From the NCBI GenBank assembly GCA_001800605.1, contig MGVS01000061.1, positions 1 through 35,468 of the forward strand: 35,468 bases of DNA, read 5' to 3'. The notes under the pieces are model-generated. The model was given only the letters and a program-made list of their open reading frames with translations. It had not been told where the DNA came from and ran no database searches. Positions 1 to 28,497 of this stretch are shown here, piece by piece. Source of the DNA: Elusimicrobia bacterium RIFOXYD2_FULL_34_15 (GTDB lineage: Bacteria; Elusimicrobiota; UBA8919). Each line of letters begins with the position of its first letter. The stretch's first letter is position 1. The translations under genes were made by a program, and so were the position numbers.

Positions 1-45
1 AATATTTTAGCCCATAAATTCTCCGACGGAAAAATAGTTTCGTGA
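1..45 (+). CDS. C-terminal tail of an upstream gene (partial)
   Basis: The frame starting at base 1 stays open for 14 codons and stops at TGA 43-45. The tail reads NILAHKFSDGKIVS, a composition plausible for a protein C-terminus. It ends 32 nt before the next gene's preferred start. It is too short to assign a family. The alternative is that this is plain intergenic sequence. Confidence 0.3.
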   Translation, partial: NILAHKFSDGKIVS

Positions 46-77
46 CAGGCTCAATGTTAATTATATCAGGAGGAATT

Positions 78-911
78 ATGTCTGAGCAAGAAATGGATTT
101 AAGGGATTATTTAATTGTAGTTAAGAAAAAAAAGAAAATGATTGTAAAAATAATGGTTATTGGTTTTTTGATTTCGGTTGCGATAGCTTTTATACAGCCA
201 ACGGTATACCAAACCACAGCAATAATTGAGCAGGCAAAAATTGAAAGAACGACAGTGGAAAGTGCTGAGAATTTGGAAACACTGTTTAAACAAACATTAA
301 ATCCTTTTTTAAAAATACTTGTTGAAAAGATGGCTATCCCTGAAGACAAAGCATTTAGTTTAACTCAAAGTTTTAGTATAACTGAAATAAGAGAACCTAA
401 CGCAATGAAGATATCTTCAGGTTATTTATTGATAATGGGCATGGGTAAAACACCTGAAAAGGCAAAAGAATTAGTTGATAACATATGTTCTATGATATTA
501 AAAAGGGAAAACGATATGGTTCAAGAAGCACTTTCTATAGTAAACAAAGATCTAGATGATTTAAGAGAACAAATTTTAAATATTAAAAAAGATGTAGGTG
601 AGATTGACCAAAAAATAGCTGCAAAAGAAAAGACGAATATTTTAGCACAATCATATGTATTTCAAACTATGGTTGAAGCCAAAGAAAATGCATTAAAGAG
701 GCAATTTGATTTGCAAAATAGATTAGCGTCAAAAGAAATGGAAATAAAATATTATACTAAATCAGCGATTATAGCATCATCTGCGTCACTTCCTAAAATG
801 AGGATGGCACAGAATAAATTGAAATTTGTATTAATAATAACTATCGTTTCTTATTTGGTTGCTATATTTTTAGCATTTATAGTAGATTATTTTGAAAAAA
901 ATCCATTATAA
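78..911 (+). CDS. Wzz-like chain-length determinant protein
   Basis: This is a 277-residue inner-membrane protein of the Wzz (polysaccharide co-polymerase) type, which sets chain length in Wzy-dependent polymer synthesis. A short basic cytoplasmic N-terminus (KKKKK at 16-20) precedes membrane segment 1 (about 21-40). A periplasmic region follows, charged and helical and probably coiled-coil from about 145 to 220, and then a second membrane segment near 249-267. This two-helix layout is the family hallmark, and the length is ordinary. The start at 78 is chosen because AGGAGG lies at 68-73; an in-frame GTG at 42 that overlaps an upstream stop is possible but has no such site. A second, unrelated-looking Wzz-like gene starts at 34491. 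Confidence 0.8.
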   Translation: MSEQEMDLRDYLIVVKKKKKMIVKIMVIGFLISVAIAFIQPTVYQTTAIIEQAKIERTTVESAENLETLFKQTLNPFLKILVEKMAIPEDKAFSLTQSFSITEIREPNAMKISSGYLLIMGMGKTPEKAKELVDNICSMILKRENDMVQEALSIVNKDLDDLREQILNIKKDVGEIDQKIAAKEKTNILAQSYVFQTMVEAKENALKRQFDLQNRLASKEMEIKYYTKSAIIASSASLPKMRMAQNKLKFVLIITIVSYLVAIFLAFIVDYFEKNPL

Positions 912-1011: not shown

Positions 1012-1794
1012 ATGAAAGTAGTGATTCTTGCAGGAGGAAAAGGGACCAGGATTAGCGAAGAGACGCAAAATACACCTAAACCAATGATTGAAATTGGCGG
1101 TAAACCAATACTTTGGCATATAATGAAAATTTACTCTCATTATGGTTTTCATGATTTTGTAATTTGCCTTGGATATCTTGGTTATGTGGTAAAAGAGTAT
1201 TTTTCTCATTATTTTTTGCATATGAGCGATATGACATTAGATATGAGTAAAAATAAAACAATTATACATAACACTGTTTCTGAGCCCTGGAAAATAACGC
1301 TTGTCGATACAGGTCCTGAGACAATGACAGGGGGAAGATTAAAGAGGATTGAAAAATATATTGGTAATGAACCTTTTATGATGACATATGGAGACGGTGT
1401 CGCAGATGTAAATATAAAAGAACTGATTAGCGTACATAAGAAAAGTAAAAAATTAGCTACTCTTACTGCAATTCAGACTGCAGGAAGATTCGGAGTATTA
1501 GATATAGAAAAAAATAACAATGTTAAAACTTTTTTGGAAAAACCAAAAGGGGAAGGTAGCTGGATAAATTCAGGTTTCTTTGTTTTAGAACCGGAAGTTT
1601 TCGATTTTATCAAACAAGGTGATTCTACAATATGGGAAAGAGAACCTCTTGAGAATATTGCGAAGAAGAATCAGCTAAATTCGTATAAACATCCGGGTTT
1701 TTGGAAGTGTATGGATACTCTAAGAGATAAAATAGAGTTAGAAAAATTATGGGACAATGGCGAAGCACCATGGAAATCATGGAAGACATCCTAA
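1012..1794 (+). CDS. rfbF: Glucose-1-phosphate cytidylyltransferase
   Basis: This cytoplasmic enzyme joins CTP and alpha-D-glucose 1-phosphate to give CDP-glucose, the first committed step to CDP-3,6-dideoxyhexoses. The N-terminus carries the nucleotidyltransferase signature LAGGKGTR (6-13) followed by TPKPM. YGDGVADV sits near residues 126-133 and an SGFFVLEPEVF segment lies further on, all as in RfbF/DdhA. The 260-residue length matches the family. AAGGAG at 1000-1005 supports the ATG. It is followed by rfbG and, further on, rfbH, the usual partners. The stop codon TAA (1792-1794) falls inside the copy of the interspersed repeat that starts at 1784. Confidence 0.95.
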   Translation: MKVVILAGGKGTRISEETQNTPKPMIEIGGKPILWHIMKIYSHYGFHDFVICLGYLGYVVKEYFSHYFLHMSDMTLDMSKNKTIIHNTVSEPWKITLVDTGPETMTGGRLKRIEKYIGNEPFMMTYGDGVADVNIKELISVHKKSKKLATLTAIQTAGRFGVLDIEKNNNVKTFLEKPKGEGSWINSGFFVLEPEVFDFIKQGDSTIWEREPLENIAKKNQLNSYKHPGFWKCMDTLRDKIELEKLWDNGEAPWKSWKTS

Positions 1795-1925
1795 AAGAAG
1801 GCTGTCTCTGATTACACAGATTAAAAGACAGATTACACAGATTATATTAAGGATTAGGTCCTAATCGGTGCCCGCCACTGAAACGTTGGTGGGTAAATAA
1901 TCGATGTTAGAAATCTGTGAAATCG
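1784..1925 (+). repeat. Interspersed inverted repeat, copy A (GATTACACAGATT family)
   Basis: A head stem AGACATCC / GGCTGTCT (1784-1791 and 1800-1807, one mismatch) is followed by two direct arms GATTACACAGATT (1810-1822, 1831-1843). Next comes a perfect 7-1-7 palindrome GATTAGG-T-CCTAATC (1852-1866), then a GC-rich mini-palindrome (1871-1893), and an inverted arm AATCTGTGAAATC (1912-1924). The layout aligns along its length with the copy at 12539-12655. It overlaps the last codons and stop of rfbF. The function is unknown. Confidence 0.75.
1871..1893 (+). repeat. GC-rich mini-palindrome nested in copy A
   Basis: CCCGCCA (1871-1877) pairs with TGGTGGG (1887-1893) with one G-T wobble and a 9-nt loop. 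It is strikingly GC-rich against its surroundings. The homologous repeat copy at 12539-12655 lacks a counterpart, so it looks like a secondary insertion in the loop of copy A. Confidence 0.55.
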
Positions 1926-1944
1926 TATTTATTATGAGGGGAAT

Positions 1945-2919
1945 ATGAATAGAAAATTTTGGAAAAACAAAAATGTTTTGATAACCGGAAATGAAGGATT
2001 TCTTGGCAGTAATCTTACGAAAATATTGATTTCTGCTGATGCTAATATCGTGGGTTTAGATATTGAAGTTAAAAGAAAAAATACTCTTTTCAATAAAGAA
2101 GATTATAAAAAAATAGTTACTGTAAAAGGCAGTGTTGCTGATTATAATTTGGTGAAAAATATAATTTCTAAATATAAAATTGAAGTAGTTCTTCATCTTG
2201 GGGCAGAAGCAATCGTAGGTAAATGTATCAAAAATCCGCTTTTAACATTTTCTTCTAATATTGAAGGTACTTGGAATATTCTGGAAGTATGCAGAAATTC
2301 AAAAACAGTTAAGTCAATAGTTACAGCTTCAAGTGATAAAGCATATGGAAGCCATAAGATACTTCCTTATAAAGAAGATGCACCATTGCACGGTGATCAT
2401 CCATACGATGTTTCAAAAAGCTGTGCCGATTTAATTGCATATACATATTTTCACACCTATGGTTTACCTGTTGCAACAACCAGATGCGGTAATATCTATG
2501 GTCCGGGGGATTTTAACTTTTCAAGGATAGTTCCGGATACTGTAAGATGCATGATAGCGAATAAACCTATTGAGATAAGAAGTGACGGTAAATTTACGCG
2601 CGATTATGTTTTTGTTGAAGATATTGCTAATGGATATATTTTATTAGCAGAAAAGCTTCAACAGCTGAAATTAGGCGGCGAAGCTTTTAATTTTAGTGAT
2701 GAAAATCCTATTACTGTTATTGAACTGGTTAAAAGGATTTATCAAATAGCCGGTAAAAAACCTGATTACAAAATATTAAATCAAGCAAAATATGAGATTA
2801 AACATCAATACTTAGCTTCGCAAAAAGCAAGAAGAATACTTAAATGGAAACCGGAATTTACTTTAAATACCGGATTAAAGAAAGCAGTTGATTGGTATAC
2901 CAATTATTTTAATAAATAG
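1945..2919 (+). CDS. rfbG: CDP-glucose 4,6-dehydratase
   Basis: This NAD-dependent extended SDR converts CDP-glucose to CDP-4-keto-6-deoxyglucose, the branch point for dideoxy and branched sugars. The start FWKNKNVLITG with GNEGFLGS (about 15-22) is the RfbG-type Rossmann motif. SDK lies at 130-132 and the catalytic pair Y154/K158 sits in YDVSK. The segment RCGNIYGPGDFNFSRIVPD and the later RDYVFVEDIANGY are typical of the family. At 324 residues it is somewhat shorter than common RfbG proteins (about 350). AGGGGA just upstream supports the ATG. It takes its substrate from rfbF and feeds rfbH, and possibly the C-methyltransferase at 18168. Confidence 0.9.
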   Translation: MNRKFWKNKNVLITGNEGFLGSNLTKILISADANIVGLDIEVKRKNTLFNKEDYKKIVTVKGSVADYNLVKNIISKYKIEVVLHLGAEAIVGKCIKNPLLTFSSNIEGTWNILEVCRNSKTVKSIVTASSDKAYGSHKILPYKEDAPLHGDHPYDVSKSCADLIAYTYFHTYGLPVATTRCGNIYGPGDFNFSRIVPDTVRCMIANKPIEIRSDGKFTRDYVFVEDIANGYILLAEKLQQLKLGGEAFNFSDENPITVIELVKRIYQIAGKKPDYKILNQAKYEIKHQYLASQKARRILKWKPEFTLNTGLKKAVDWYTNYFNK

Positions 2920-2937
2920 TACGAAAGATTAAAATAA

Positions 2938-2979
2938 GTAACGGGTAATAGGTAACGAGTAACGAGTAAAAGGTAAATG
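2938..2979 (+). repeat. Tandem heptamer array GTAAYRR (6 units)
   Basis: Six contiguous 7-mers: GTAACGG, GTAATAG, GTAACGA, GTAACGA, GTAAAAG, GTAAATG. This is the same family as 921-955, more diverged at the 3' end. Both arrays lie just after a stop codon and are followed by a similar TAAATTTTTAAT tract. Confidence 0.8.
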
Positions 2980-3006
2980 GTTTGGAGTTTATAGATAAAA
3001 CACTAA

Positions 3007-3046
3007 ATTTTTAATCCCGCGACAAGCTCGGGACAAGATTTTTAAT
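3007..3046 (+). repeat. 22-bp GC-rich element flanked by 9-bp direct repeats
   Basis: Two related 11-mers, CCCGCGACAAG (3016-3026) and CTCGGGACAAG (3027-3037), form a GC-rich island. It is flanked on both sides by ATTTTTAAT (3007-3015 and 3038-3046). The corresponding tract after the first heptamer array (988-996) has the same 9-mer with no insert. This looks like a small insertion with a target duplication. The flanks are low-complexity, so chance is a real alternative. Confidence 0.5.
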
Positions 3047-3065
3047 TTTTAATTGGTTTTAATAC

Positions 3066-3806
3066 ATGAAAGTTATATTTTTAGGGACAAACGGCTGGTA
3101 CGATACTGAGACAGGTAATACTACCTGTATACTTATAGAGACAGATAAAGAGTTTATAATACTTGATGCAGGAAATGGATTTTACAAGATAGATAAATAT
3201 ATAAAATCTAAGAAACCAATATATCTTTTCTTAAGTCATTATCACTTAGACCACATATCTGGGTTACATATTTTAAATAAATTTAATTTCTCTCAGGGAA
3301 TTAAAATATACGGTCCACCCAATTTAAAAAAAGCAATAAATACAATAATTAAACAGCCATATTCTATGCCGTTGAAGCAGTTGAAAACTGATATAACACT
3401 TTACAATATTGACAAGAAAATAAAGTTTCCGGTAAATGTTGAATATAAGGAATTATCCCATACAGCTCTTTGCTACGGATATAGATTTTATTTAGAAAAT
3501 AAAGTAATTTCGTATTGCCCGGATACGGCAATGTGTGATAACTTGTTTTTACTTGCAAAGAATGCCGGTTTATTGATAACTGAATGTTCATATAAAGTAA
3601 ATAAAGATGTTAAAAGCTGGCCGCATTTAAATCCTCAGAAAGCAGCATATTTAGCAAAAAAATCTAACGCTAAAAAATTACTATTAGTTCATTTTGATCC
3701 TAATATTTACAAAACTCTAAAGGAAAGAAAAGAAGCACAGATAATAGCAAGTAAAGTTTTTAAAAATACAGTTGCTGCATCAGATAATTTGAGTGTAAAA
3801 ATTTAA
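3066..3806 (+). CDS. Metallo-beta-lactamase-fold hydrolase (RNase Z-like group)
   Basis: This is a 246-residue cytoplasmic metal-dependent hydrolase; its substrate is not known. The metal motif HxHxDH is present as H58-Y-H60-L-D62-H63 after a hydrophobic strand. Further candidate ligands are a His in LSHTAL (about 133), an Asp in the CPDTA segment (about 156) and a His in LLVHFDP near 210. The pattern resembles the RNase Z/arylsulfatase-like subgroup, but the length is too short and the setting wrong for a tRNA-processing enzyme. Its stop is only 3 nt before mhpF, so it is probably co-translated with the aldolase pair and may act on an acyl or lactone intermediate. That last point is inference. 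No strong ribosome site precedes the ATG. Confidence 0.8.
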   Translation: MKVIFLGTNGWYDTETGNTTCILIETDKEFIILDAGNGFYKIDKYIKSKKPIYLFLSHYHLDHISGLHILNKFNFSQGIKIYGPPNLKKAINTIIKQPYSMPLKQLKTDITLYNIDKKIKFPVNVEYKELSHTALCYGYRFYLENKVISYCPDTAMCDNLFLLAKNAGLLITECSYKVNKDVKSWPHLNPQKAAYLAKKSNAKKLLLVHFDPNIYKTLKERKEAQIIASKVFKNTVAASDNLSVKI

Positions 3807-3809
3807 ATA

Positions 3810-4679
3810 ATGAAAAAAGTTAAAGTTGGAATTATCGGAACAGGGAATATCGGCACCGATTTGCTAGTTAAAATACAAAGATCGGAAATACTTGAATGCG
3901 GGATTTTTGCAGGCAGGAGCAAGGATTCGAACGGAATCAGAAAAGCAGAGCAAATGGGAGTTAAGACTTCAAGTGAATCTATAAAATATATTCAAGATAA
4001 TCCTGATTGCTGCGAGATTGTATTTGACGCTACATCCGCAAAAATACATTTATATAATGCGCCGATTTTGAAAAGTTTAAAAAAGTATGCAATTGACTTA
4101 ACTCCTTCCCAAGTCGGCAAGATGTGTGTTCCTGCAATAAATATGGCAGAGTGTCTTAACTCGGATAATATCAATCTTATAACTTGCGGCGGCCAGGCGA
4201 CAATTCCAATTGCATACGCAATAATGAAAGTCCATCCTGAAATAGAATATATTGAAATCGCTGCTAGTATTTCGTCCAAATCAGCAGGTCCGGGTACCAG
4301 GGCAAATATTGATGAGTTTACTCAGACGACCAGAGATGCGATAACAGAATTTACCGGTGTAAAGAGCGCTAAAGCAATTATCGTACTAAATCCTGCCGAA
4401 CCGCCTGTTTTAATGCACAACACAATTTATGCAAAAATAGAAAATCCAAATATTGAAAAACTTCATATTGAAATCACGGCAATGGCTAAGAAAATTCAAA
4501 AATATGTTCCCGGTTTTAAAATAACGCTCGGGCCGGTAGCAGAAAATAACAGGGTAACTACAATGGTTGAGGTTGTCGGTTTGGGGGATTTTTTGCCAAA
4601 ATATTCCGGAAATCTTGATATAATAACGTGTGCAGCAGTAAATATGGCAGAAGAATACGCAAAAAAGAAGATACTATAA
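3810..4679 (+). CDS. mhpF: Acetaldehyde dehydrogenase (acylating), MhpF/DmpF family
   Basis: This enzyme interconverts acetaldehyde + CoA + NAD and acetyl-CoA + NADH, normally as the tight partner of the aldolase encoded next. The N-terminal Rossmann motif is VGIIGTGNIGTD (about 6-17). The catalytic cysteine is C126 in LITCGGQATIP, the family signature. The segment SSKSAGPGTRANIDEFTQTT also matches. At 289 residues it is slightly shorter than most MhpF proteins (about 310). The mhpE-like gene follows after 15 nt, as in catabolic operons, but no upstream catabolic genes (hydratase, meta-cleavage enzymes) are present and the neighbours are sugar genes. Working in the reductive direction to supply acetaldehyde is an inference. 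Confidence 0.9.
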   Translation: MKKVKVGIIGTGNIGTDLLVKIQRSEILECGIFAGRSKDSNGIRKAEQMGVKTSSESIKYIQDNPDCCEIVFDATSAKIHLYNAPILKSLKKYAIDLTPSQVGKMCVPAINMAECLNSDNINLITCGGQATIPIAYAIMKVHPEIEYIEIAASISSKSAGPGTRANIDEFTQTTRDAITEFTGVKSAKAIIVLNPAEPPVLMHNTIYAKIENPNIEKLHIEITAMAKKIQKYVPGFKITLGPVAENNRVTTMVEVVGLGDFLPKYSGNLDIITCAAVNMAEEYAKKKIL

Positions 4680-4694
4680 GAAGAGGCATAATCT

Positions 4695-5741
4695 ATGGAT
4701 AATAAACTCATTTTTTTTGATTCAACTTTGCGTGACGGTTCTCACGCTGTAAGCCATAAGCTTGAAGCTGAAAATATAAAAAATTATTGCAGGGAAATAG
4801 ATGAGGCGGGTTTATATACCGTAATTGTCGGCCATGGCAATGGTCTTGGCGCTTCTTCTTTGCAGGTTGGGCTATCCGCACTTACAGATAATGAAATGCT
4901 TGAAACCGCTCACCGGGAACTTAAAAAAACTAAATTGGGAGCATTTTTAATACCCGGTTTTGGTACGATAAAAGAAAACTTAAATCCGGCTATTGATAGA
5001 GGAGTTGAATTATTTTGCGTTGCAGTTCATTGTACAGAGGCAGATGTTACCAAGCAGCATATAGAATACATAAGATCTAAGGGAAAGGAAGCATATGGTA
5101 TATTGATGATGTATCATATGGCTACTAAAGAACGGCTTTTGGAAGAAGCGTTAAAAATGCAGAGTTACGGAGCACAAGGTGTAATTCTAATGGATTCTGC
5201 AGGAGCTTCGGTTCCAAAATTAGTATCAGATACAGTCAGATATTTTGTTGATCATTTAAAAGTTAGAGTAGGTTTTCATGCTCATAATAATCTTGGTCTT
5301 GCAATTTCAAATTCGTTGATAGCAATAGAGTCAGGTGCTGCTATTATTGATGGTACTGTTCGAGGTTTTGGGGCAGGAGCGGGTAATTGCCAGCTTGAAG
5401 TTTTATCAGGACTTCTCTCGAAATTGGAAATTGAAACAGGTCTTGATTTATATAAATTGATGGATGCAAGCGATCATGTTGTTGCAAAAATGATGAAAAC
5501 ACCGCAGGAAATAACATCAATGAGCTTAATCAGCGGTCTTGCCGGTGTTTTTTCCGGTTTTGCAAATAATGTAAAAAAGGCAGCTATAAGATTTAAGGTT
5601 GATCCAAGAGATATTTTTATGGAATTGGGACGCAGAAAGATAGTAGCAGGACAGGAAGATTTCATTGTTGATGTTGCTATGTATTTGGCAAGTAAAAAAG
5701 GTTCTGAAGAAGAAAGTTACGATATTGAATCATTATTATGA
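4695..5741 (+). CDS. mhpE: 4-hydroxy-2-oxovalerate aldolase, MhpE/DmpG family
   Basis: This class II pyruvate aldolase reversibly joins pyruvate and acetaldehyde to 4-hydroxy-2-oxovalerate, channelling the aldehyde to or from MhpF. The HMGL-like TIM barrel begins with STLRDGSHAVSH, which holds the expected R13, metal-binding D14 and base H17. The other metal ligands H195 and H197 lie in GFHAHNN. GTVRGFGAGAGNCQLEV and a C-terminal helical domain complete the family pattern. The length (348) is normal. AAGAGG (4681-4686) precedes the ATG by 8 nt. All catalytic residues I can place are intact, so activity is expected; whether the aldehyde is acetaldehyde cannot be read from the sequence. The stop TGA (5739-5741) overlaps the first bases of the next repeat. 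Confidence 0.9.
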   Translation: MDNKLIFFDSTLRDGSHAVSHKLEAENIKNYCREIDEAGLYTVIVGHGNGLGASSLQVGLSALTDNEMLETAHRELKKTKLGAFLIPGFGTIKENLNPAIDRGVELFCVAVHCTEADVTKQHIEYIRSKGKEAYGILMMYHMATKERLLEEALKMQSYGAQGVILMDSAGASVPKLVSDTVRYFVDHLKVRVGFHAHNNLGLAISNSLIAIESGAAIIDGTVRGFGAGAGNCQLEVLSGLLSKLEIETGLDLYKLMDASDHVVAKMMKTPQEITSMSLISGLAGVFSGFANNVKKAAIRFKVDPRDIFMELGRRKIVAGQEDFIVDVAMYLASKKGSEEESYDIESLL

Positions 5742-5871
5742 TATTGTTGGAAAACCCAACAATATCTGATTACACTGATTAAAGCAAGATTACACAGACC
5801 TGCCTGACGGTAGGCAGGTTAAGGCACGATTGTAGTATCTGTGTAATCGTTTTTTAAAATCTGTGTAATCG
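5740..5871 (+). repeat. Interspersed inverted repeat, copy C
   Basis: A perfect 11-bp head stem GATATTGTTGG / CCAACAATATC (5740-5750, 5756-5766, loop AAAAC) starts at the aldolase stop codon. Arms GATTACACTGATT (5768-5780) and GATTACACAGA (5789-5799) follow. A GC-rich palindrome (5798-5819) forms the centre, and two inverted arms ATCTGTGTAATCG lie at 5837-5849 and 5859-5871. The whole can fold into one large hairpin. No T-tract follows the head stem, so it is not a canonical intrinsic terminator. Confidence 0.75.
5798..5819 (+). repeat. GC-rich mini-palindrome nested in copy C
   Basis: ACCTGCCT (5798-5805) pairs perfectly with AGGCAGGT (5812-5819) around a 6-nt loop GACGGT. It sits at the centre of copy C, where copy B (12539-12655) has only AT-rich sequence. 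It differs in sequence from the palindrome in copy A. Confidence 0.65.
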
Positions 5872-5896
5872 TCTTTTAAAAGTGAGGTATTGAAAA

Positions 5897-7681
5897 ATGA
5901 GAGTTGCAGATTTTATCTTCAAATATTTAACTGACAGAGGTACTGATACTGTTTTTATGGTTTCAGGCGGACAAGCGATGTTTCTTGTTGATGCAATTTA
6001 TCAAAATAAAAAACTAAAGCCGATTTGTACACATCATGAACAGACCGCCGGAATGTCGGCTGATGCATACGGAAGAATAACCGGTAAGTTAGGTGTTGTG
6101 TTGGTTACCGCAGGGCCTGGTTCTGTGAATGTCATGAATGGTCTTGTCGGAGGTTGGACTGATTCGTCGCCAATGATAATTATATCGGGACAGTCTGCGT
6201 TATCTCACGTTAAATATCAGCAAGAGCATCCGGTAAGACAATACGGTATTCAGGGCATAAATATAAAACCTCTTGTTGAGAAAGCTACAAAATATTTTAT
6301 AACAGTTGATGATCCCGCTAAAATATTGTATTACATCGGCAAGGCATATTATCTTGCTTTAAGCGGCCGTCCGGGACCTGTATGGATTGATGTACCTTTG
6401 GATATACAAAAGATGGAAGTACCGGTTCATTTATTAGAAGAGTTTATGCCGCCAATTGAAAATACTAATAATAGTCTATTAAAAGAACAAGTTTTTAGTA
6501 CATTGAAACTTTTGAATAATTCGAAAAGGCCTGTTTTCGTAGTCGGGCAGGGTGTACGTTTGGCAAATGCTGTTAGCGAATTTTCAGAAATATGTGAAAA
6601 GTTAAATATACCGGTAATCACATCCAGGCTGGGAATTGACCTTATAAATAGCGATAATGAATTATATGTCGGCCGTCCGGGTAACTACGGAGAAAGGTCT
6701 GCAAACTTTGCAATCCAGAATTCAGACTTAATAATTTCTGCCGGTTGCAGGCTCGCTTCTGCGCTTGTCGGGCATGATCCTAAAAATTTCGGTAAATTTG
6801 CTAAAAAAATAGTTGTTGATATTGACAAGGAAGAACTGGATAAACCAGGTGTAAATATCGACTTGAAAATTCACAACGATGTTAAACGTTTTTTTACTGA
6901 GATATTAAAACAAATTAAAGCATCCGAAGTTCCTGATTTTACCGGATGGATTAAACAATGTAATCATTGGAAAAAAACATATCCTGTAGTTTTGCCTTCC
7001 TACAAAAAAGAAAAACCTATTAATTCATATTATTTTACTGATAGATTATCGGAAATATCTAAGAAAGAGGATATGATAATCGTTGATACTGGTACTTGTT
7101 TCCATGTTGCATGCCAGGCATGGAAAATAAAAAAAGGTCAGAGATTTTTAACTACAGGCGGTCTTTCTTCAATGGGCTGGTGGGTAGCCGGAATAGGTGC
7201 TTGCATTGCAAACGATAGGAAACGAACCATAGTTATTACCGGTGACGGAAGTTTGCAGATGAATATTCAGGAATTTGCAACTATTAAACATAATAAATTA
7301 CCGATAAAGGTTTTTATTTTTAATAATAACGGATATTTGCTTATAAGACACACGCAAAAAAACTTTATGGAAGGAAGATTATTGGGCGAAGGACCGGATA
7401 CGGGAGTTTGGTGTCCGGATTCATTAAAGATTGCACAGGCATACGGAATAAAAGGTGTAAGAATAAATTCAGTAAAAGAAGTTGATTCAAAAATTAAGGA
7501 AGTTATGGATTCGTCAGGGCCTGTAATTTGTGATGTTATGACACCGGAATGGCAGTTGATTATCCCGAGAATATCTTCGGAAAAAAGACCAGATGGTACT
7601 TTGGTTTCAAAACCTTACGAAGACATGTTTCCGTTTCTGGATAGAAAAATTTTGAAGAAAGAAATGGTTGCTGAATCATAA
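5897..7681 (+). CDS. Thiamine-diphosphate enzyme, acetolactate synthase/YerE-like
   Basis: This is a 594-residue ThDP-dependent enzyme of the pyruvate oxidase/acetolactate synthase superfamily. It has an N-terminal pyrimidine-binding domain with catalytic E48 (HHEQTAG), a middle domain (about 200-330), and a C-terminal PP-binding domain with GDGS at 449-452 and NNNG at 476-479. In Yersinia the related YerE decarboxylates pyruvate and adds the two-carbon acyl group to C-4 of CDP-4-keto-3,6-dideoxyglucose, giving the branched sugar yersiniose. Its place between the aldolase pair and rfbH fits that class better than branched-chain amino acid synthesis; no small regulatory subunit (IlvN) is present. 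The donor may be pyruvate or 4-hydroxy-2-oxovalerate. GTGAGG precedes the ATG. Confidence 0.85.
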   Translation: MRVADFIFKYLTDRGTDTVFMVSGGQAMFLVDAIYQNKKLKPICTHHEQTAGMSADAYGRITGKLGVVLVTAGPGSVNVMNGLVGGWTDSSPMIIISGQSALSHVKYQQEHPVRQYGIQGINIKPLVEKATKYFITVDDPAKILYYIGKAYYLALSGRPGPVWIDVPLDIQKMEVPVHLLEEFMPPIENTNNSLLKEQVFSTLKLLNNSKRPVFVVGQGVRLANAVSEFSEICEKLNIPVITSRLGIDLINSDNELYVGRPGNYGERSANFAIQNSDLIISAGCRLASALVGHDPKNFGKFAKKIVVDIDKEELDKPGVNIDLKIHNDVKRFFTEILKQIKASEVPDFTGWIKQCNHWKKTYPVVLPSYKKEKPINSYYFTDRLSEISKKEDMIIVDTGTCFHVACQAWKIKKGQRFLTTGGLSSMGWWVAGIGACIANDRKRTIVITGDGSLQMNIQEFATIKHNKLPIKVFIFNNNGYLLIRHTQKNFMEGRLLGEGPDTGVWCPDSLKIAQAYGIKGVRINSVKEVDSKIKEVMDSSGPVICDVMTPEWQLIIPRISSEKRPDGTLVSKPYEDMFPFLDRKILKKEMVAES

Positions 7682-7690
7682 TAGAAGTTT

Positions 7691-8614
7691 ATGAAAAAGA
7701 AAATAGCGGTACTTGGAGCAACAGGTCATATATCTAAAAGTTTGATTTATAATTTAAGTAGGCAAAAAAGATATGATCTTTTTTTATTTGCGCGAAATTT
7801 ACAAAAATTAAAAAAATTCTTGAAAGAAATTAATTGTGAGAATGAACATAATGTAAATACTTTTAATAAATTTGACAGCGGTAAATATGATGCAATAATA
7901 AATTGTGTCGGAGTCGGAATTCCATCCAAGGTTAAGGAATTGGGTAGTGAAATTTTTAACCTTACCGAAAGTTTTGACAACATGGTAATTGAATATCTTA
8001 ACAAACATTCTAAATCAATTTATATTTATTTAAGTAGCGGGGCTGTTTATGGGTCTGATTTTAAGATGCCCGTTTGTGATTCGACTTGTTCGAAATGGAA
8101 TATTAAAAATATCGGTGAAGGCGATTATTACGGCATATCTAAACTTAATTGTGAGGCAAAACATAGATCTTTAAAAAAATTGAACATAGTTGATTTAAGA
8201 ATATTTAATTATTTTAGTAGATTTATTGAGCTTGATTCTAAATATTTATTAACTGAAATAATAACATGTATTAAGAATGAAAAAGAATTTATAACTAACA
8301 GAGAAAACATAATAAGAGACTTTATACATCCTGAGGATTTAGTTGCATTGATTCAAAATTTCATAAATAAAAAAAATATTAATGATGCTTTCGATGTATA
8401 TAGTAAAAAACCTATCAAGAAGTTTGAAATTTTAAATTTTTTCAAAAAGGAATATGATTTAAAATATCATGTAAGTAATGATATTAGCATTTCGTCAATA
8501 ACCGGAAATAAAAATAGTTATTATTCGAAAAGCAGAAAAGCAGAAAGCATAGGATATATTCCCAAATATTCTTCTTTGGATTGTATTAAATATGAAACAA
8601 AAGAATTGATGTGA
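7691..8614 (+). CDS. SDR-family NAD(P)-dependent reductase
   Basis: This 307-residue extended short-chain dehydrogenase/reductase has a slightly atypical nucleotide motif, GATGHIS (9-15), in place of GxxGxxG. The active site is recognisable: serines in YLSSGAVYG (about 114-122) and Y147/K151 in YYGISK. RDFIHPEDLVALI (about 213-225) is typical of sugar-nucleotide reductases. It begins 9 nt after the ThDP enzyme and ends 16 nt before rfbH. By position it could be the ketoreductase that finishes the branched sugar, a role like YerF, but similarity to YerF cannot be judged here. It is more AT-rich and lysine/asparagine-rich than its neighbours. Confidence 0.75.
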   Translation: MKKKIAVLGATGHISKSLIYNLSRQKRYDLFLFARNLQKLKKFLKEINCENEHNVNTFNKFDSGKYDAIINCVGVGIPSKVKELGSEIFNLTESFDNMVIEYLNKHSKSIYIYLSSGAVYGSDFKMPVCDSTCSKWNIKNIGEGDYYGISKLNCEAKHRSLKKLNIVDLRIFNYFSRFIELDSKYLLTEIITCIKNEKEFITNRENIIRDFIHPEDLVALIQNFINKKNINDAFDVYSKKPIKKFEILNFFKKEYDLKYHVSNDISISSITGNKNSYYSKSRKAESIGYIPKYSSLDCIKYETKELM

Positions 8615-8630
8615 AATATTGGAGAGTAAT

Positions 8631-9944
8631 ATGAAAAATGAATTAAAAATAAAAAAAGAAATTTTAAATAAGGTTAAGGAGTTTTATTTTGCACAGCAGA
8701 AGAAAAAGTTTATTCCGGGCAGCACACTTGTAAATTACGCAGGACGGGTTTATGATTATAAAGAACTAGTAAATCTAGTTGATTCTTCGCTTGACTTTTG
8801 GTTAACTGCCGGAAGATATGCACAGGAGTTTGAGGAAAAATTTGCAGAGTTTTTAGGAATGAAATATTGTTCTTTGGTTAATTCCGGCTCTTCCGCAAAT
8901 CTTATTGCTTTAACAACATTAACTTCTAGGGCTTTAAAAAATAGACAGTTAAAGCCAGGGGATGAAGTAATTACGACCGCATGCGGTTTTCCGACAACAT
9001 TAAATCCAATTATTCAAAATAACCTGAAACCGGTATTTATTGATGTTGAGCTTGGAACATATGACATTCAAGCCGATAAAATTGAAAAAGCAATTTCAAA
9101 AAAGACAAAAGCAATATTTGTTCCTCATACTTTGGGTAATCCGTCAAATATAGATAAAATATTAAAATTGGTAAAAAAATACAACCTTTGGTTTATTGAA
9201 GATAATTGCGATGCTCTTGGATCAAGATATAACGGTAAATATACCGGAACATTCGGCCATATTTCAACATTCAGTTTTTATCCGGCTCATCATATCACAA
9301 TGGGCGAAGGCGGTGCGGTTGCAACAAATGATCCATTGTTGAGAAGAATAATATTATCATTTCGTGATTGGGGAAGAGATTGTTGGTGTGAACCCGGACA
9401 CGATAATACCTGTAAAATGCGGTTTAATCAGCAGTTCGGTGAATTGCCATTCGGTTATGATCATAAATATGTTTACTCTCATATAGGGTACAATCTAAAA
9501 GTAACGGATATGCAGGCATCCGTAGGAGTAGCTCAGTTAGAAAAACTTCCAAGATTTATAGATGTACGTAAAAATAATTTCGAATATCTGTTTACTAAAT
9601 TAAAAAGATACGAAAAATATTTTATTTTGCCTATTGCGACAAAAAATTCTTCACCGAGCTGGTTTGGATTCCCGATTATAGTAAAAGAAACGGCATCATT
9701 CAATAGATCAGATATTGTAAGTTTTCTTGAAACAAATAAAATTGCAACACGTATGCTTTTTGGCGGTAATTTGATAAAACAGCCTGCCTATCAAAATATA
9801 AAATACAGAGTGCATGGTGACTTGAAAAACACTGATTTAGTTATGAATAATCTGTTCTGGATTGGAGTATATCCAGGAATAAATAAAGAAAAACTCAAAT
9901 ATATAATTCATATTTTTGATGTGTTTTTAAAAAAAAATAGATGA
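8631..9944 (+). CDS. rfbH: CDP-4-keto-6-deoxyglucose 3-dehydrase (E1)
   Basis: This pyridoxamine-phosphate and [2Fe-2S] enzyme removes the C-3 hydroxyl of CDP-4-keto-6-deoxyglucose. It has the aminotransferase fold with the lysine replaced by histidine: H220 in YPAHHITMGEGG. The iron-sulfur spacing C-X57-C-X1-C-X7-C is intact as C193, C251, C253 and C261, the positions known for the Yersinia E1. One non-ligand cysteine often seen in this loop is His257 here. The start at ATG 8631 is preferred because GGAGAG lies at 8621-8626; an in-frame TTG at 8619 has no such site. It gives 437 residues, the usual length. Its reductase partner (RfbI/AscD) is not in the window. It overlaps the next gene by ATGA (9941-9944). 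Confidence 0.95.
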   Translation: MKNELKIKKEILNKVKEFYFAQQKKKFIPGSTLVNYAGRVYDYKELVNLVDSSLDFWLTAGRYAQEFEEKFAEFLGMKYCSLVNSGSSANLIALTTLTSRALKNRQLKPGDEVITTACGFPTTLNPIIQNNLKPVFIDVELGTYDIQADKIEKAISKKTKAIFVPHTLGNPSNIDKILKLVKKYNLWFIEDNCDALGSRYNGKYTGTFGHISTFSFYPAHHITMGEGGAVATNDPLLRRIILSFRDWGRDCWCEPGHDNTCKMRFNQQFGELPFGYDHKYVYSHIGYNLKVTDMQASVGVAQLEKLPRFIDVRKNNFEYLFTKLKRYEKYFILPIATKNSSPSWFGFPIIVKETASFNRSDIVSFLETNKIATRMLFGGNLIKQPAYQNIKYRVHGDLKNTDLVMNNLFWIGVYPGINKEKLKYIIHIFDVFLKKNR

Positions 9945-11593
9945 AAATATTAATTGTTGTTCCGCGTACAATTGTATCTGATAAAGTAAATTATAAATAT
10001 CTTTTTCCGCTGGGACTAGCGTACATATCTTCGGCATTGAAATTAGCGGGACATGATATTGATTGTCTAAACCTGAATCATTATTCGGGTACAACTGAAA
10101 ATTTAATAAATAATTACTTATTTTCGCAAAAGTATAATGTTATCTGTACCGGCGGTTTATCTACTTCATATAAACAGATAAAGATGGTCACAGATGCTGT
10201 TCATAAATCAGGTACCGATGCCAAACTTATTTTAGGCGGTGGAGCAATTTCAAGCGAACCAGAACTTATGTTTAATGCTCTGAAACCGGATTATATTGTA
10301 ATTGGCGAAGGCGAGAAAACAATTGTAGAGCTTGTTAATAGTATTAAAAATGGTGATAATGTTAAATATGTTGATGGTATAGGTTATTTGGATAACAATG
10401 CCAAATTTATCTGTACAAAACCTCAAGTACCTATAGAAAATCTGGATACTATTCCTTTACCGGATTTTGAAGGGTTTGAGTTTGAAAAATATCTTGACAA
10501 CATGCAGCCTTCAGATATGTATTTCTACGATTTATATGACTTTCCAAGGGTATATCCCATTGTCTGCAGCCGTTCATGTCCTTTTTTATGTACTTTTTGT
10601 TTTCACCCGGTAGGTAATAGATATCGGCAAAGGAGTGTTGATTCTATAATCCATGAGCTTTCAGTTATGATAAAGCGTTATCGTATAAATACAATTGCTA
10701 TTTATGACGAATTATTTTCCAATAACCGTGAATGGCTTTTTGAATTCTGCAAACGCATAAAAATGCTTTTTTCGGAGATTTCATGGGAGTGCAAGTGGAG
10801 TTGCCAGATGCGGGTTGATAAATTAGATGACGAAATGTTAAGAGTAATGAAAGATTCCGGATGTTATATGATAAGTTATGGTTTTGAAAGCTATAGTCCT
10901 GTTGTTTTAAAAAGTATGAAAAAACATATAACTCCGGAACAAATAAAAAATGCTGTGGATACGACAATGAAACATAATATAAGTATCCAGGCTAATTTTA
11001 TATTTGGCGACTCCGCTGAAACCATGCAAACAGCTAGTGAGACGCTCGATTATTGGAAGAAAAATAATTCTGCAGGTATTATGCTATCTTATATTAATCC
11101 TTATCCCGGCAGTGAGCTTTATGAGCATTGTATTGAAAAGGGGATAATCAAAGATAAACTGGATTTCATAGAAAATCATATTTATGATATATTGAATATG
11201 AGTGGTACTATGACAGATAGAGAGCTTGAAAAATTGAAATATGATATTTATGAAGCGGAACTTAGATATAGGTTTTATGCAGTACCGAAGTCATTAAAAA
11301 AAACCGAAGATAATACGTATAATATTAAAGTTAAATGTCCTCATTGCAAAGAAATTATAGAATATAAAAATTATTCGATTACTTATAAATTATATTTTCT
11401 TTATTTGATGTATTGCCGTAATTGCCGTAAACGTTTCTTTGTTGTTTCCGGAGCTTATATGGTTATTTCAAAAATTATGTTATTATTTTATTTAATGATG
11501 CCTAAAGAATTAAAAGTTGCAACTTATAAAGTATTTCAAGGATTAACAAAAATTAAACCAGCTTTAAAAAAATACATTTTAAAATTTTCGTAA
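9941..11593 (+). CDS. B12-binding-domain radical SAM protein with C-terminal zinc ribbon
   Basis: This is a 550-residue protein. Residues 1-140 look like a cobalamin-binding Rossmann domain (PLGLAYISSALKLAGHDI, then LGGGAISSEPE and IGEGEKTIVEL). The radical SAM core carries CxxxCxxC as C213, C217 and C220, preceded by an extra C209. After the barrel, a ribbon-like module has C466-x2-C469 and C492-x2-C495, with hydrophobic helices after it. Members of this broad family do C-methylation, oxidation or other radical changes; the substrate here is unknown. Start-stop overlap with rfbH suggests coupled translation and a role in modifying the same sugar or a lipid carrier. A membrane association of the tail is possible. 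Confidence 0.85.
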   Translation: MKILIVVPRTIVSDKVNYKYLFPLGLAYISSALKLAGHDIDCLNLNHYSGTTENLINNYLFSQKYNVICTGGLSTSYKQIKMVTDAVHKSGTDAKLILGGGAISSEPELMFNALKPDYIVIGEGEKTIVELVNSIKNGDNVKYVDGIGYLDNNAKFICTKPQVPIENLDTIPLPDFEGFEFEKYLDNMQPSDMYFYDLYDFPRVYPIVCSRSCPFLCTFCFHPVGNRYRQRSVDSIIHELSVMIKRYRINTIAIYDELFSNNREWLFEFCKRIKMLFSEISWECKWSCQMRVDKLDDEMLRVMKDSGCYMISYGFESYSPVVLKSMKKHITPEQIKNAVDTTMKHNISIQANFIFGDSAETMQTASETLDYWKKNNSAGIMLSYINPYPGSELYEHCIEKGIIKDKLDFIENHIYDILNMSGTMTDRELEKLKYDIYEAELRYRFYAVPKSLKKTEDNTYNIKVKCPHCKEIIEYKNYSITYKLYFLYLMYCRNCRKRFFVVSGAYMVISKIMLLFYLMMPKELKVATYKVFQGLTKIKPALKKYILKFS

Positions 11594-12540: not shown

Positions 12541-12655
12541 ACATCCTAAAAAGAGAGGGATGTCTGATTACATTGATTAAAAGGCAGATTACACAGATTA
12601 TTTTAAAGGTTTAGGTTCTAATCAGTGTAATTGGTGTTAAAAAATCTGTGTAATC
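12539..12655 (+). repeat. Interspersed inverted repeat, copy B
   Basis: Head stem AGACATCC / GGATGTCT (12539-12546 and 12558-12565, perfect). Arms GATTACATTGATT (12566-12578) and GATTACACAGATT (12587-12599), a TTTAGGTTCTAATC centre, then inverted arm AATCTGTGTAATC (12643-12655). It aligns with copy A but lacks A's GC-rich central palindrome. A further 7-4-7 palindrome (ATATAAT-GTTG-ATTATAT, 12658-12675) follows and contains a TATAAT box; no convincing -35 accompanies it. Confidence 0.75.
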
Positions 12656-12688
12656 AGATATAATGTTGATTATATTAGAGGGGGATTG

Positions 12689-15600
12689 GTGAAAAAATAT
12701 TTTAAAATAATTATCATTATTTTAATTTTATTATTAACGGTTGTGGAATATTTGTGGTATAAAAAAGAAAGTAATGTTGATATATTAAAAAAGTATCCGC
12801 TTTATAGTATAGTAGGTAAAGCTTATCCGGACAAACAGATAAAAACCGTAAATCCTATAGATGGATGGCTTGTGTATGGTCCATATACACCGATGAGAAA
12901 AGGAGAATATGAAATAACATATGAGTTGTTTCTGAATAATATTAAACCAAATGAGAATCCTTCAAAAGTAGTTGGTTATGTAAATATTGATGTTGAAAAT
13001 CATCCAACATTAATATATCAGCAGAATTTTACTATTAATGATTTTAAAAAAACAAATCCTTATAAGATAACCTTGAAGTTTACTATCCCGGAAGGGCTTC
13101 CGAAAATACAGTATAGAGTTTTTCAATATGGCGGAAACGAAATTACACTAAAGGGCTTAAAGTTATCTCCAAAGAGCTTTTGGAGTAAGTATGGTATTCT
13201 AAAAAGTAATTTTATTCTTTATAATTTTGTTTTGATTATAGCTTTATTTTTAATTTTAATACCTGAATATTATTGGTTTAGAAACAAAGAAGTTAAAAAA
13301 AATAGATTATTAGAAGGCAGTGTTTTGGTATTGATATTGACACTTGGTTTTCTTAATCTCAACAAGAGCTGGTTATTTAAAGAAGATACTAATATAAATG
13401 TTTTGAAATCGTATCCTTCATTTACCCATGTCGGTACAATAGATAATGTAAGTAAACAGGTTAATGGTGATGGTTCTAAAGAAGGTTTTTTGCTTTTCGG
13501 ACAAAATGTGCCATTAGCAAAAGGAAAATATAGAGTTAAATTTAAAATAAATTTAAGCAATTTAAATAAAAATGACGATATGGAGAAAAAAATTGCTTAT
13601 TGTGATGTGTATATTGACGGGCACGAATCTATATCAGGAATAAAAATGCTGACTAATAGAGATTTTATAAAGCGAAATCCGAATACCGTATCCTTTAAAT
13701 TCAGGGTAATAGAGGATTTGGCTAATGTTCAATTCCGCGTTTATCAATACAAATTGAATATTCTTTCAGTTGAATCAATAAAGCTGCAATCGGTAATCGG
13801 AAAAAGCATAGCTACAGTAAAGACAGGTATTATAAGAAAGCTTATTGTTTTAATCCTTACAATAATAATGATATCTTGTTTAATATTTATATTTAAAATT
13901 TATTTTAACTTATTAACTTCAAACAGAACAAAAGTCGTCAGTGAATACGTACTGGTTATTATTTTATGTCTGCTAACTTTTTTATGGATTACTAAATTAT
14001 GGAAAACTAGTTTAAGAGTTCCGATTGATTACGGCGGAGATGCATTATTCTCAGCCATGACTATTAAATCAACTATTGATAATAATTGGTATTGGAATAA
14101 TAAATATTCCGGAGCACCAACAGGCCTTTTAATGCACGATTATCCAATGTCAGAAAATGTTCATTTTTTAATAATAAAGATAATATCAATATTTTCTTCC
14201 GATTGGGCGTTAGTAATGAATATTTTTTTCATACTTACTTTTTTATTGGCGGCAATTTCGGCGTTGTTTGTATTCAGGCAATTTAAAATCTCATATGCAC
14301 CTGCAGCAGCAGCAAGCTTGCTTTATGCTTTTTTGCCAACCCATTTTTTCAGGAATGTTAGCCACCTATTTGTTGTATCATACTATGCTGTTCCACTGAT
14401 TATAATGGTAATATTATGGATATATTCCGACAATCCGCCCTTTTTTATTAAAGAAAAAAATTCTGAAAATAGTAAATTTAGCTTTCGAGATTACAAATCG
14501 ATAGTTAGCTTGATAATAGGCCTTATAATTTCATCAACAGGGATATATTATGCCTTCTTTGCTTGCTTATTTATTATTGTTGCCGGTTTTTCTTCTTATT
14601 TGTCACATAAGAAAATATCCAATCTTGTAGCTGCTTTGATATTATTAGCGGTAGTAAATATAGGATTTATAGTTAACTTATCACCTTCGATAGTTTACAA
14701 GTTAAAGCATGGAAAGAATATGGCAACATATCATTATGACCCTAATGGCGCAGAAATTCACGGCTTGAAAATTATACAAATGCTGCTTCCGATTTCAGAT
14801 CATAGAATACCGGCATTTGCAAAATTGAATAAAAAATATTATGCAATAGCACTATTAGTCAACGAAAATGGGGCCGCAGTTTTGGGTTTAGTCGGTAGTA
14901 TAGGTTTTATTATTTTAATTGGATGGCTATTTTATAGAAAATCAAGTTGTTCAAATGAAGATTTAACCGGTAATTTGAGTGAATTAAATGTTGCTGCTGT
15001 ATTATTTGCAACAATAGGCGGATTTTCTTCTCTTTTTGCATTTTTAATTTCTCCGCAATTGAGGGCGTACAACAGAATAAGTGTTTTTATTTCTTTCTTT
15101 TCTTTGTTTGCTGTTGTATTGCTTTTGGATAAAATTTATCATAAGTTTATTAAAACAGAATTAACCAAATTTATATACTATGTACTTATTATGTTTATAT
15201 TTGTGTTCGGCATATTGGATGAGACCAATAAAACATTTGTCTTTCCCGCCACTTGGGTGCAATCTGAATATAATGAGACTGCCGGTTATATCAAAAAAAT
15301 TGAAAGTTCCGTACCAAAAAACTCAATGATATTCCAGCTGCCGTATCTGGCTTTTCCTGAAAGTCCTACAATGTATTGGATGGGTGCTTATGAATTGTTT
15401 AAAGGATATTTGCATTCACATACTTTACGTTGGAGTTTTGGTTCAATGAAAGGCAGGGAATGTGATTTATGGCAAAAGGAAGTTACTGCAAAACCATTGA
15501 ACGAATTCTTAGAAGAAATATCTTTAGTGGGATTTAATGGAATATATGTAGATAAATACGGTTTTGCGGATGCTTTTGCTCCTGCCGGGCCGGATATTGT

Positions 15601-15769
15601 ATCAAAACTTTCGGATACTTTAAAAATAAAACCTGTTACAAATTATAATAATAGATTTTTCTTTTTTAATCTTGAAGAATATAACAAAAAACTGCAAAAG
15701 AAGTATTCTGCAGTAGAAATAAAAACAAAACGAGATGCCATATTTTCTAAATATAAATTAAATATATAA
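12689..15769 (+). CDS. Large membrane protein, GT-C-like, with two copies of an N-terminal YGPY domain
   Basis: This is a 1026-residue polytopic membrane protein. After a signal-anchor helix (about 4-23) comes a roughly 135-residue soluble domain (about 30-165) with the pattern GWLVYGPY-P, GEYE, GYVNIDVENHP, FTIxDF, NPY, PEGLPKxQYRVFQYGGN. A helical pair follows, then a second diverged copy (about 236-375), and then about ten or more hydrophobic helices and a C-terminal soluble part of about 170 residues. The membrane half, with an Asp-rich first loop (VPIDYGGDALFSA), resembles GT-C glycosyltransferases. It may add a lipid-linked sugar on the outer face or act in polymerisation; neither is proven. 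GTG 12689 with AGGGGG at 12679-12684 is a better-spaced start than TTG 12686. Confidence 0.7.
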   Translation: MKKYFKIIIIILILLLTVVEYLWYKKESNVDILKKYPLYSIVGKAYPDKQIKTVNPIDGWLVYGPYTPMRKGEYEITYELFLNNIKPNENPSKVVGYVNIDVENHPTLIYQQNFTINDFKKTNPYKITLKFTIPEGLPKIQYRVFQYGGNEITLKGLKLSPKSFWSKYGILKSNFILYNFVLIIALFLILIPEYYWFRNKEVKKNRLLEGSVLVLILTLGFLNLNKSWLFKEDTNINVLKSYPSFTHVGTIDNVSKQVNGDGSKEGFLLFGQNVPLAKGKYRVKFKINLSNLNKNDDMEKKIAYCDVYIDGHESISGIKMLTNRDFIKRNPNTVSFKFRVIEDLANVQFRVYQYKLNILSVESIKLQSVIGKSIATVKTGIIRKLIVLILTIIMISCLIFIFKIYFNLLTSNRTKVVSEYVLVIILCLLTFLWITKLWKTSLRVPIDYGGDALFSAMTIKSTIDNNWYWNNKYSGAPTGLLMHDYPMSENVHFLIIKIISIFSSDWALVMNIFFILTFLLAAISALFVFRQFKISYAPAAAASLLYAFLPTHFFRNVSHLFVVSYYAVPLIIMVILWIYSDNPPFFIKEKNSENSKFSFRDYKSIVSLIIGLIISSTGIYYAFFACLFIIVAGFSSYLSHKKISNLVAALILLAVVNIGFIVNLSPSIVYKLKHGKNMATYHYDPNGAEIHGLKIIQMLLPISDHRIPAFAKLNKKYYAIALLVNENGAAVLGLVGSIGFIILIGWLFYRKSSCSNEDLTGNLSELNVAAVLFATIGGFSSLFAFLISPQLRAYNRISVFISFFSLFAVVLLLDKIYHKFIKTELTKFIYYVLIMFIFVFGILDETNKTFVFPATWVQSEYNETAGYIKKIESSVPKNSMIFQLPYLAFPESPTMYWMGAYELFKGYLHSHTLRWSFGSMKGRECDLWQKEVTAKPLNEFLEEISLVGFNGIYVDKYGFADAFAPAGPDIVSKLSDTLKIKPVTNYNNRFFFFNLEEYNKKLQKKYSAVEIKTKRDAIFSKYKLNI

Positions 15770-19400: not shown

Positions 19401-19927
19401 AGTTTATAGAAACTAAATTAAAAGGTGCATATATTATTGAAATAGAGCGTTTAGAAGATGAACGCGGTTTTTTTGGGCGCACATTTTGTCAGAAAGAGTT
19501 CAATGCTCACGGCCTTAATTCCCGAATTGTACAATGCAATATTTCGTTTAACAAAGAAAAGGGAAGCTTGCGCGGTATGCATTATCAAGTTGCTCCTTAT
19601 GAGGAAGTTAAATTGTTACGCTGCATCAGGGGAGCTATCTATGATGTCATTATAGATTTAAGGACGGATTCCACTACCTATTGTAAATGGGTATCTGTGG
19701 AGTTAAATGATAAGAATAATAGGATGTTTTATATACCGGCAGGTTTTGCTCACGGATTTCAGACGCTAGAAGGTAATACCGAGCTTTTTTACCAGATGTC
19801 AGAATTTTATCATCCTGAAAGTGCAAGAGGCGTCAGGTGGGATGATCAAGCTTTCAATATAAAATGGCCTTTACCTAATCCAATAATGTCTGAAAAAGAT
19901 TCAAAATACCAAAATTTTAAAAAATGA
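19397..19927 (+). CDS. rfbC: dTDP-4-dehydrorhamnose 3,5-epimerase-like sugar epimerase
   Basis: This 176-residue cupin-fold epimerase acts on 4-keto-6-deoxy sugar nucleotides. RGFFGR (23-28) and RGMHYQ (59-64, with base H62) match RmlC, as do K72 and Y132 at the expected active-site positions. The C-terminal WDDQAFNIKWP is also characteristic. The length is normal. No RmlA, RmlB or RmlD is present, so it is not part of a rhamnose operon here. Between a C-methyltransferase and a reductase (4-nt overlap on both sides) it more likely does a single or double epimerisation of the methyl-branched sugar, as in the mycarose-type pathways. The exact position epimerised cannot be told. Confidence 0.88.
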   Translation: MKFIETKLKGAYIIEIERLEDERGFFGRTFCQKEFNAHGLNSRIVQCNISFNKEKGSLRGMHYQVAPYEEVKLLRCIRGAIYDVIIDLRTDSTTYCKWVSVELNDKNNRMFYIPAGFAHGFQTLEGNTELFYQMSEFYHPESARGVRWDDQAFNIKWPLPNPIMSEKDSKYQNFKK

Positions 19928-28455: not shown

Positions 28456-28497
28456 TTACACAGATTAGAAAGCAGATTACACAGATACTGCGTAATC
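28454..28497 (+). repeat. Interspersed repeat, copy D (short)
   Basis: Two direct arms GATTACACAGATT (28454-28466) and GATTACACAGATA (28475-28487) are followed at once by an inverted arm CTGCGTAATC (28488-28497). The second arm and the inverted arm pair as a tight hairpin with one mismatch. The head stem and central part seen in copies A-C are missing. The upstream gene's stop TGA overlaps the first bases of the repeat. Confidence 0.7.

Follow-up and report, generated by a model that had tools for sequence, protein, structure and literature searches.

A likely erwiniose-type branched-sugar pathway within a surface polysaccharide locus of Elusimicrobiota

Gene content of the locus

The window analyzed here is contig MGVS01000061.1 (C61 below; 35,468 nucleotides) of Elusimicrobia bacterium RIFOXYD2_FULL_34_15, an Elusimicrobiota genome (G000) of 2.47 Mb in 119 contigs. 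It holds a surface polysaccharide locus whose first nine genes, from a Wzz-like gene to rfbH, all have the same direction. Positions 1012-9944 form a single co-directional run encoding RfbF, an RfbG-like protein, a metallo-beta-lactamase (MBL) fold protein, MhpF, MhpE, a YerE-like thiamine diphosphate (ThDP) dependent ligase, a short-chain dehydrogenase/reductase (SDR) and RfbH (Table 1). A preliminary description of this DNA proposed that MhpF and MhpE supply the ligase with the donor for a C10 branched sugar. The open reading frames from mhpF to rfbH lie where that description put them. The one run that it placed after rfbFG holds as far as gene direction is concerned, but the MBL-fold gene intervenes between the rfbG-like gene and mhpF. 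The rfbH frame is present as described, with its start probably at ATG 8631, which has GGAG upstream, rather than at TTG 8619.

RfbF, MhpF, MhpE and RfbH all score above the cut-offs of curated models. MhpF and MhpE are intact, as had been claimed: C126 of MhpF, and R13, D14, H17, H195 and H197 of MhpE, are the same in ten ThDP-linked homologues compared. MhpE thus carries the catalytic Arg/Asp/His set of its family in addition to the communication domain PF07836. It is 50-74% identical to ThDP-linked homologues outside its own genus and 41.5% identical to the catabolic DmpG. The mhpF gene is present in a single copy in the genome. In RfbH, which had also been recognized earlier, the lysine that binds pyridoxal 5'-phosphate (PLP) is replaced by His (motif SFYPAHHITMGEGG) and the CxC...C cluster cysteines are kept.

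Table 1. Features of the window and of related loci (L numbers)
Feature	Locus	Position	Strand	Evidence or remark
Wzz-like gene	window	42-911		co-directional with the run
rfbF, glucose-1-phosphate cytidylyltransferase	window	1012-1794	+	TIGR02623 415.7 bits, cut-off 300
rfbG-like, CDP-glucose 4,6-dehydratase-like (extended SDR)	window	1945-2919	+	TIGR02622 225 bits, below cut-off 278; YDVSK at 154
MBL-fold hydrolase (RNase Z-like)	window	3066-3806	+	PF12706
mhpF, acylating acetaldehyde dehydrogenase	window	3810-4679	+	TIGR03215 392 bits, cut-off 282; C126
mhpE, 4-hydroxy-2-oxovalerate aldolase with DmpG communication domain	window	4695-5741	+	TIGR03217 386.5 bits, cut-off 286; PF07836
Intergenic interspersed-repeat cluster (ATCTGTGTAATC copies and CCTGCCTGACGGTAGGCAGG hairpin)	window	5768-5870		no strand
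YerE-like ThDP-dependent branch ligase	window	5897-7681	+	E48, GDGS 449-452; JanthE nearest in PDB
SDR, probable exocyclic-ketone reductase	window	7691-8614	+	YGISK at 147; fold match 8v4g
rfbH, CDP-4-keto-6-deoxyglucose 3-dehydratase (PLP, 2Fe-2S)	window	8631-9944	+	PRK15407 722 bits, cut-off 423; His and Cys motifs
B12-binding radical S-adenosylmethionine (SAM) protein	window	9941-11593	+	PF02310, PF04055; start overlaps rfbH stop
ATCTGTGTAATC interspersed repeat	window	1810-1924, 5768-5870, 12587-12655, 28454-28486		both orientations
SDR of about 350 residues, dTDP (deoxythymidine diphosphate)-glucose-dehydratase-like	L019, L018, L119, L148, L149	7950-8999, 4410-5459, 2184-3239, 9498-10559, 8452-9516		
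HpcH/HpaI aldolase adjoining the ThDP gene in mhpEF clusters	L118, L148, L005	9701-10560, 5052-5831, 688-1461		
NeuB-neighboured YerE-like loci, examples	L017, L022, L027, L029, L033, L035, L036, L047, L056, L073			

Conservation of the mhpF-mhpE-ThDP gene set

A search of 84,980 species genomes with an alignment of the ThDP protein returned 80 YerE-like loci; two variant contigs of the window's own genome bring the number to 82, the window being counted among them. MhpE is encoded in 10 of the 82, each time on the upstream side of the ThDP gene, either adjoining it or one gene off, and in these loci MhpF lies upstream of MhpE wherever the contig extends far enough. The carriers belong to Omnitrophota, Roizmanbacteria, Magasanikbacteria, Lachnospiraceae and Mariprofundaceae, and include the cultured Thiomicrorhabdus arctica (DSM 13458, locus L019) and one further bacterium; the trio is thus also found in Patescibacteria lineages. 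The Omnitrophota carrier has the gene order of the window, MBL-fold gene included.

When 341 Elusimicrobiota genomes were searched for the MhpE communication domain above its cut-off, MhpE was found in eight. A YerE-like gene adjoins mhpE in all eight, and rfbF and rfbH accompany it in every case where the contig is long enough. The gene order varies: these genomes have MhpF-MhpE-ThDP, ThDP-MhpF-MhpE-SDR (L119, L148 and L149) and MhpF-MhpE-HpcH-ThDP (L118), and the order MhpF-MhpE-SDR-ThDP is also seen among the linked loci. The adjacency has therefore been retained through rearrangement, and since the linkage is seen again in many genomes it goes beyond chance. The preliminary description had stated beforehand that lack of conservation of the gene set would refute its proposal; this outcome was not observed, as mhpF-mhpE-ThDP together with rfbF and rfbH recurs in several phyla and several orders.

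Among the matches listed from plasmid records there were only acetolactate-synthase-like proteins, at most 32.5% identical. The search of 84,980 genomes did not return erwE of Pectobacterium, and neither a draw of 369 Gammaproteobacteria genomes nor a search for the Lpp marker turned up an enterobacterial genome.

The ThDP ligase, its phylogeny and the SDR

The ThDP protein groups with the YerE-like ligases by motif, sequence and fold. The catalytic E48 and the GDGS motif at 449-452 are present as first described. Against solved structures, JanthE is the closest by sequence (423 bits, compared with 248 bits for the best acetolactate synthase). It is also the best match in the PDB for the predicted model (mean predicted local distance difference test score, pLDDT, 93), with a template modelling (TM) score of 0.95; acetolactate synthases reach at most 0.88. 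The gene shares its run with rfbF, the rfbG-like gene and rfbH, the genes of a cytidine diphosphate (CDP) deoxyketosugar cluster.

A tree was built of 88 ThDP proteins, leaving out the long-branch or outgroup sequences L050, L120 and L121 as well as JanthE; supports are values of a Shimodaira-Hasegawa-like approximate likelihood ratio test (SH-aLRT) on a quick tree. All 17 mhpEF-linked ThDP proteins fall within one clade of 24 (SH-aLRT 98). Within it, the window belongs to a subclade of 14, in which 13 of the 13 testable members are mhpEF-linked; the remaining one, L011, starts at a contig edge. The linkage label requires 5 changes on the tree, compared with 15.8 in shuffles. An earlier tree that included L050, L120, L121 and JanthE gave the same clade, with L120, which has no mhpEF alongside, inside the window's subclade.

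JanthE residues V121, Y297 and K567 align with I118, H293 and R558 of the window's protein. Close to the cofactor, Q26 and C401-F402-H403 are particular to the clade of this protein. Prediction of the donor from pocket residues was dropped, as alignment alone does not foretell donor choice.

The SDR carries the GATGHIS motif and Y147xxxK151. The nearest fold to its model (mean pLDDT 89) is 8v4g, an NADP reductase of CDP-glucitol synthesis (TM-score 0.81, 17% identity). The match fits a CDP-sugar ketone reductase, as weak evidence, because extended SDRs are all alike.

Proposed pathway and alternatives

We suggest the following route. In brief, RfbF, the RfbG-like enzyme and RfbH would make CDP-4-keto-3,6-dideoxyglucose, judging from their families. 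MhpF and MhpE are established members of their families, and their reactions would here run in the direction of synthesis, MhpF converting acetyl-CoA to acetaldehyde and MhpE joining acetaldehyde and pyruvate to 4-hydroxy-2-oxopentanoate. By analogy with ErwE of Pectobacterium atrosepticum, the ThDP enzyme would decarboxylate this acid and place the C4 acyl anion onto the C4 ketone of the CDP-sugar, after which the SDR would reduce the new exocyclic ketone. Such a route would yield a C10 sugar sharing its carbon skeleton with erwiniose or with a stereoisomer of it. The erwiniose skeleton is a 3,6-dideoxyhexose that bears a 1,3-dihydroxybutyl branch at C4.

ErwE combines a hydroxy-2-oxo acid with CDP-4-keto-3,6-dideoxyglucose in the synthesis of erwiniose (2025 review, PMC12247030), a 10-carbon branched sugar (PMC8657720). 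In vitro, with an analogue as acceptor, it rejects pyruvate and favours 4-hydroxy-2-oxobutanoate, -pentanoate or -hexanoate (PMC12247030). The window shares with this system a YerE-like ThDP ligase and, as predicted acceptor, donor and product, CDP-4-keto-3,6-dideoxyglucose, a 4-hydroxy-2-oxo acid and a C10 sugar. The earlier proposal that MhpEF and the YerE-like enzyme lead to a C10 branched sugar is supported by the linkage in several phyla and by the ErwE parallel (PMC12247030). An erwiniose-type branched-sugar pathway is the most likely interpretation of the locus. We put the probability of a 4-hydroxy-2-oxo acid donor at about 0.8; the exact chain length is less certain. It should be noted that the predicted sugar is not new as a kind, erwiniose of plant-rot bacteria being its known counterpart. 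What appears to be new is the genomic evidence, that is, the mhpF-mhpE-ThDP linkage across genomes. A limited literature search, which cannot prove absence, found no earlier statement of a link between MhpEF and lipopolysaccharide.

Some points weigh against an erwiniose-type pathway. The RfbG-like protein falls below its family cut-off and is CDP-glucose 4,6-dehydratase-like by sequence, not a certified family member. A DdhD/RfbI-type reductase was not found in the window, and the genome gave only weak matches (30.8 bits). The set for CDP-4-keto-3,6-dideoxyglucose supply thus consists of RfbF and RfbH above their cut-offs and the RfbG-like protein below, with DdhD not found. The ErwE system comes from another phylum and was likened to the window by its published chemistry. 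Finally, MhpE may accept other aldehydes, giving a C3, C4 or C5 branch.

This last point leads to an alternative that we regard as unlikely, namely that MhpE and MhpF use formaldehyde, propanal or a hydroxyaldehyde to make another 4-hydroxy-2-oxo acid, and that the branch is C3 or C5 instead of C4. The acids preferred by ErwE give no single answer, and some linked loci have an added HpcH/HpaI aldolase. Against this, MhpF scores above the equivalog cut-off for acetaldehyde dehydrogenase and is retained together with MhpE, and the simplest precursor is acetyl-CoA.

A plain yersiniose pathway, where the ThDP enzyme takes pyruvate as YerE does and MhpE and MhpF are bystanders or serve another purpose, is quite improbable. 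YerE uses pyruvate on the same acceptor as ErwE (PMC12247030), and JanthE, the nearest solved structure, takes pyruvate among several donors. The yersiniose system of Yersinia pseudotuberculosis also resembles the window in its RfbFGH-type supply, a ThDP ligase of the shared subclass and a downstream reductase. YerE, however, moves a C2 unit from pyruvate (at most C3, from 2-oxobutyrate), whereas the window's operon includes a dedicated aldolase/dehydrogenase pair. The adjacency of this donor-making pair to the ThDP gene, found here and in every testable subclade member, is seen across several phyla and in differing gene orders, always within a single ThDP clade, and MhpE in Elusimicrobiota is confined to YerE-like loci.

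That the pair splits 4-hydroxy-2-oxovalerate into pyruvate and acetyl-CoA for the cell, as in aromatic degradation, the usual role of the family, is hardly credible: no hydratase or meta-cleavage gene was recognized among the window proteins scanned, in agreement with the preliminary description, and MhpE of Elusimicrobiota is found within sugar clusters only. The window's MhpE-MhpF and the catabolic DmpG-DmpF have families, catalytic residues and the communication domain in common; unlike DmpG-DmpF, the window's pair has no recognized catabolic genes nearby and presumably works in the synthetic direction.

Exchange of donor genes

The sibling species G001 has the same flanks as the window, at 76-87% nucleotide identity. 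After mhpE its locus (L118) encodes an added HpcH/HpaI-family aldolase and a ThDP enzyme just 44% identical to that of the window. In L148, from another family, an HpcH gene directly precedes the ThDP gene within the mhpEF cluster. The replaced ThDP gene and added aldolase of the sibling suggest exchangeable donor modules.

Elsewhere, the genes next to YerE-like ones encode HpcH/HpaI aldolases, a PLP aminotransferase-like protein or a NeuB-family synthase, the last either alone or accompanied by a haloacid dehalogenase (HAD) family phosphatase. One rule compatible with this pattern is that the neighbouring gene would provide the 2-oxo acid donor. In many phyla, and in Mycobacterium among others, a NeuB-family synthase gene shortly precedes the ThDP gene, frequently joined by the HAD phosphatase; this suggests 2-keto-3-deoxy sugar acids as donors of these enzymes. 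The caryophyllose pathway of Mycobacterium marinum (MMAR_2332) resembles the window in its YerE-like enzyme and has an ErwE-like donor preference (PMC12247030); the mycobacterial loci L035, L036 and L047 have a NeuB-type synthase in place of the window's MhpEF. An aspartate-aminotransferase/GntC-like PLP gene is found directly upstream of the ThDP gene in L023, L028, L031, L051 and L077, and the donor precursor of these enzymes could be an amino acid. More tentatively, and with rather low confidence, we speculate that the ligases are modular: the neighbouring 2-oxo acid enzyme (MhpEF, HpcH/HpaI, NeuB-type or aminotransferase) would set the branch and be swapped together with the ligase, and HpcH and MhpEF in L118 and L148 would act in turn to build a longer, undescribed sugar.

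One type of mhpEF cluster, not that of the window, has an SDR of about 350 residues resembling dTDP-glucose dehydratase after MhpE. The MBL-fold gene is found at the equivalent position in L010 and L118, and recurs within the YerE-like clusters L016 and L017 as well.

Repeats, variant contigs and other genes

Gene boundaries carry the repeat ATCTGTGTAATC, which occurs in either orientation; the window has 11 sites where 0.14 would be expected. The genome contains 200 exact copies of AATCTGTGTAATC and the sibling 105; the reversed control gave 0. The repeat cluster at 5768-5870 sits at the mhpE/ThDP junction, the site of the sibling's extra aldolase gene.

Two further contigs of the genome, C26 and C32, both short, bear MhpE. 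C26 is 99.99% identical to G001 over 7,420 bases, and three paralogous operons in one genome were rejected as the likely explanation on the basis of this identity and the single mhpF copy. Probably, C26 is a variant allele of the same locus that was binned together with the window's, and by analogy so is C32.

The B12-binding radical SAM protein could methylate or rearrange the sugar; it lies outside the core set, and L118 has no such gene at the corresponding position after rfbH. Further downstream, positions 18168-21617 encode consecutively a C-methyltransferase, an RmlC-type 3,5-epimerase, an SDR and a CmcI-type methyltransferase, possibly for a second, SAM-branched sugar of the same locus. 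Large proteins encoded at 12686-15769, 15783-18125 and 31485-34451 (1027, 780 and 988 residues) have no NCBIfam match, and the first two have no Pfam match either.

Implications

The linkage would tie rare C10 branched sugars to a recognizable three-gene signature, mhpF-mhpE-ThDP, in uncultured phyla with little-known surface chemistry. It further suggests that the branch can be predicted from the gene adjoining a YerE-like ligase; glycan structures could then be guessed from genomes.

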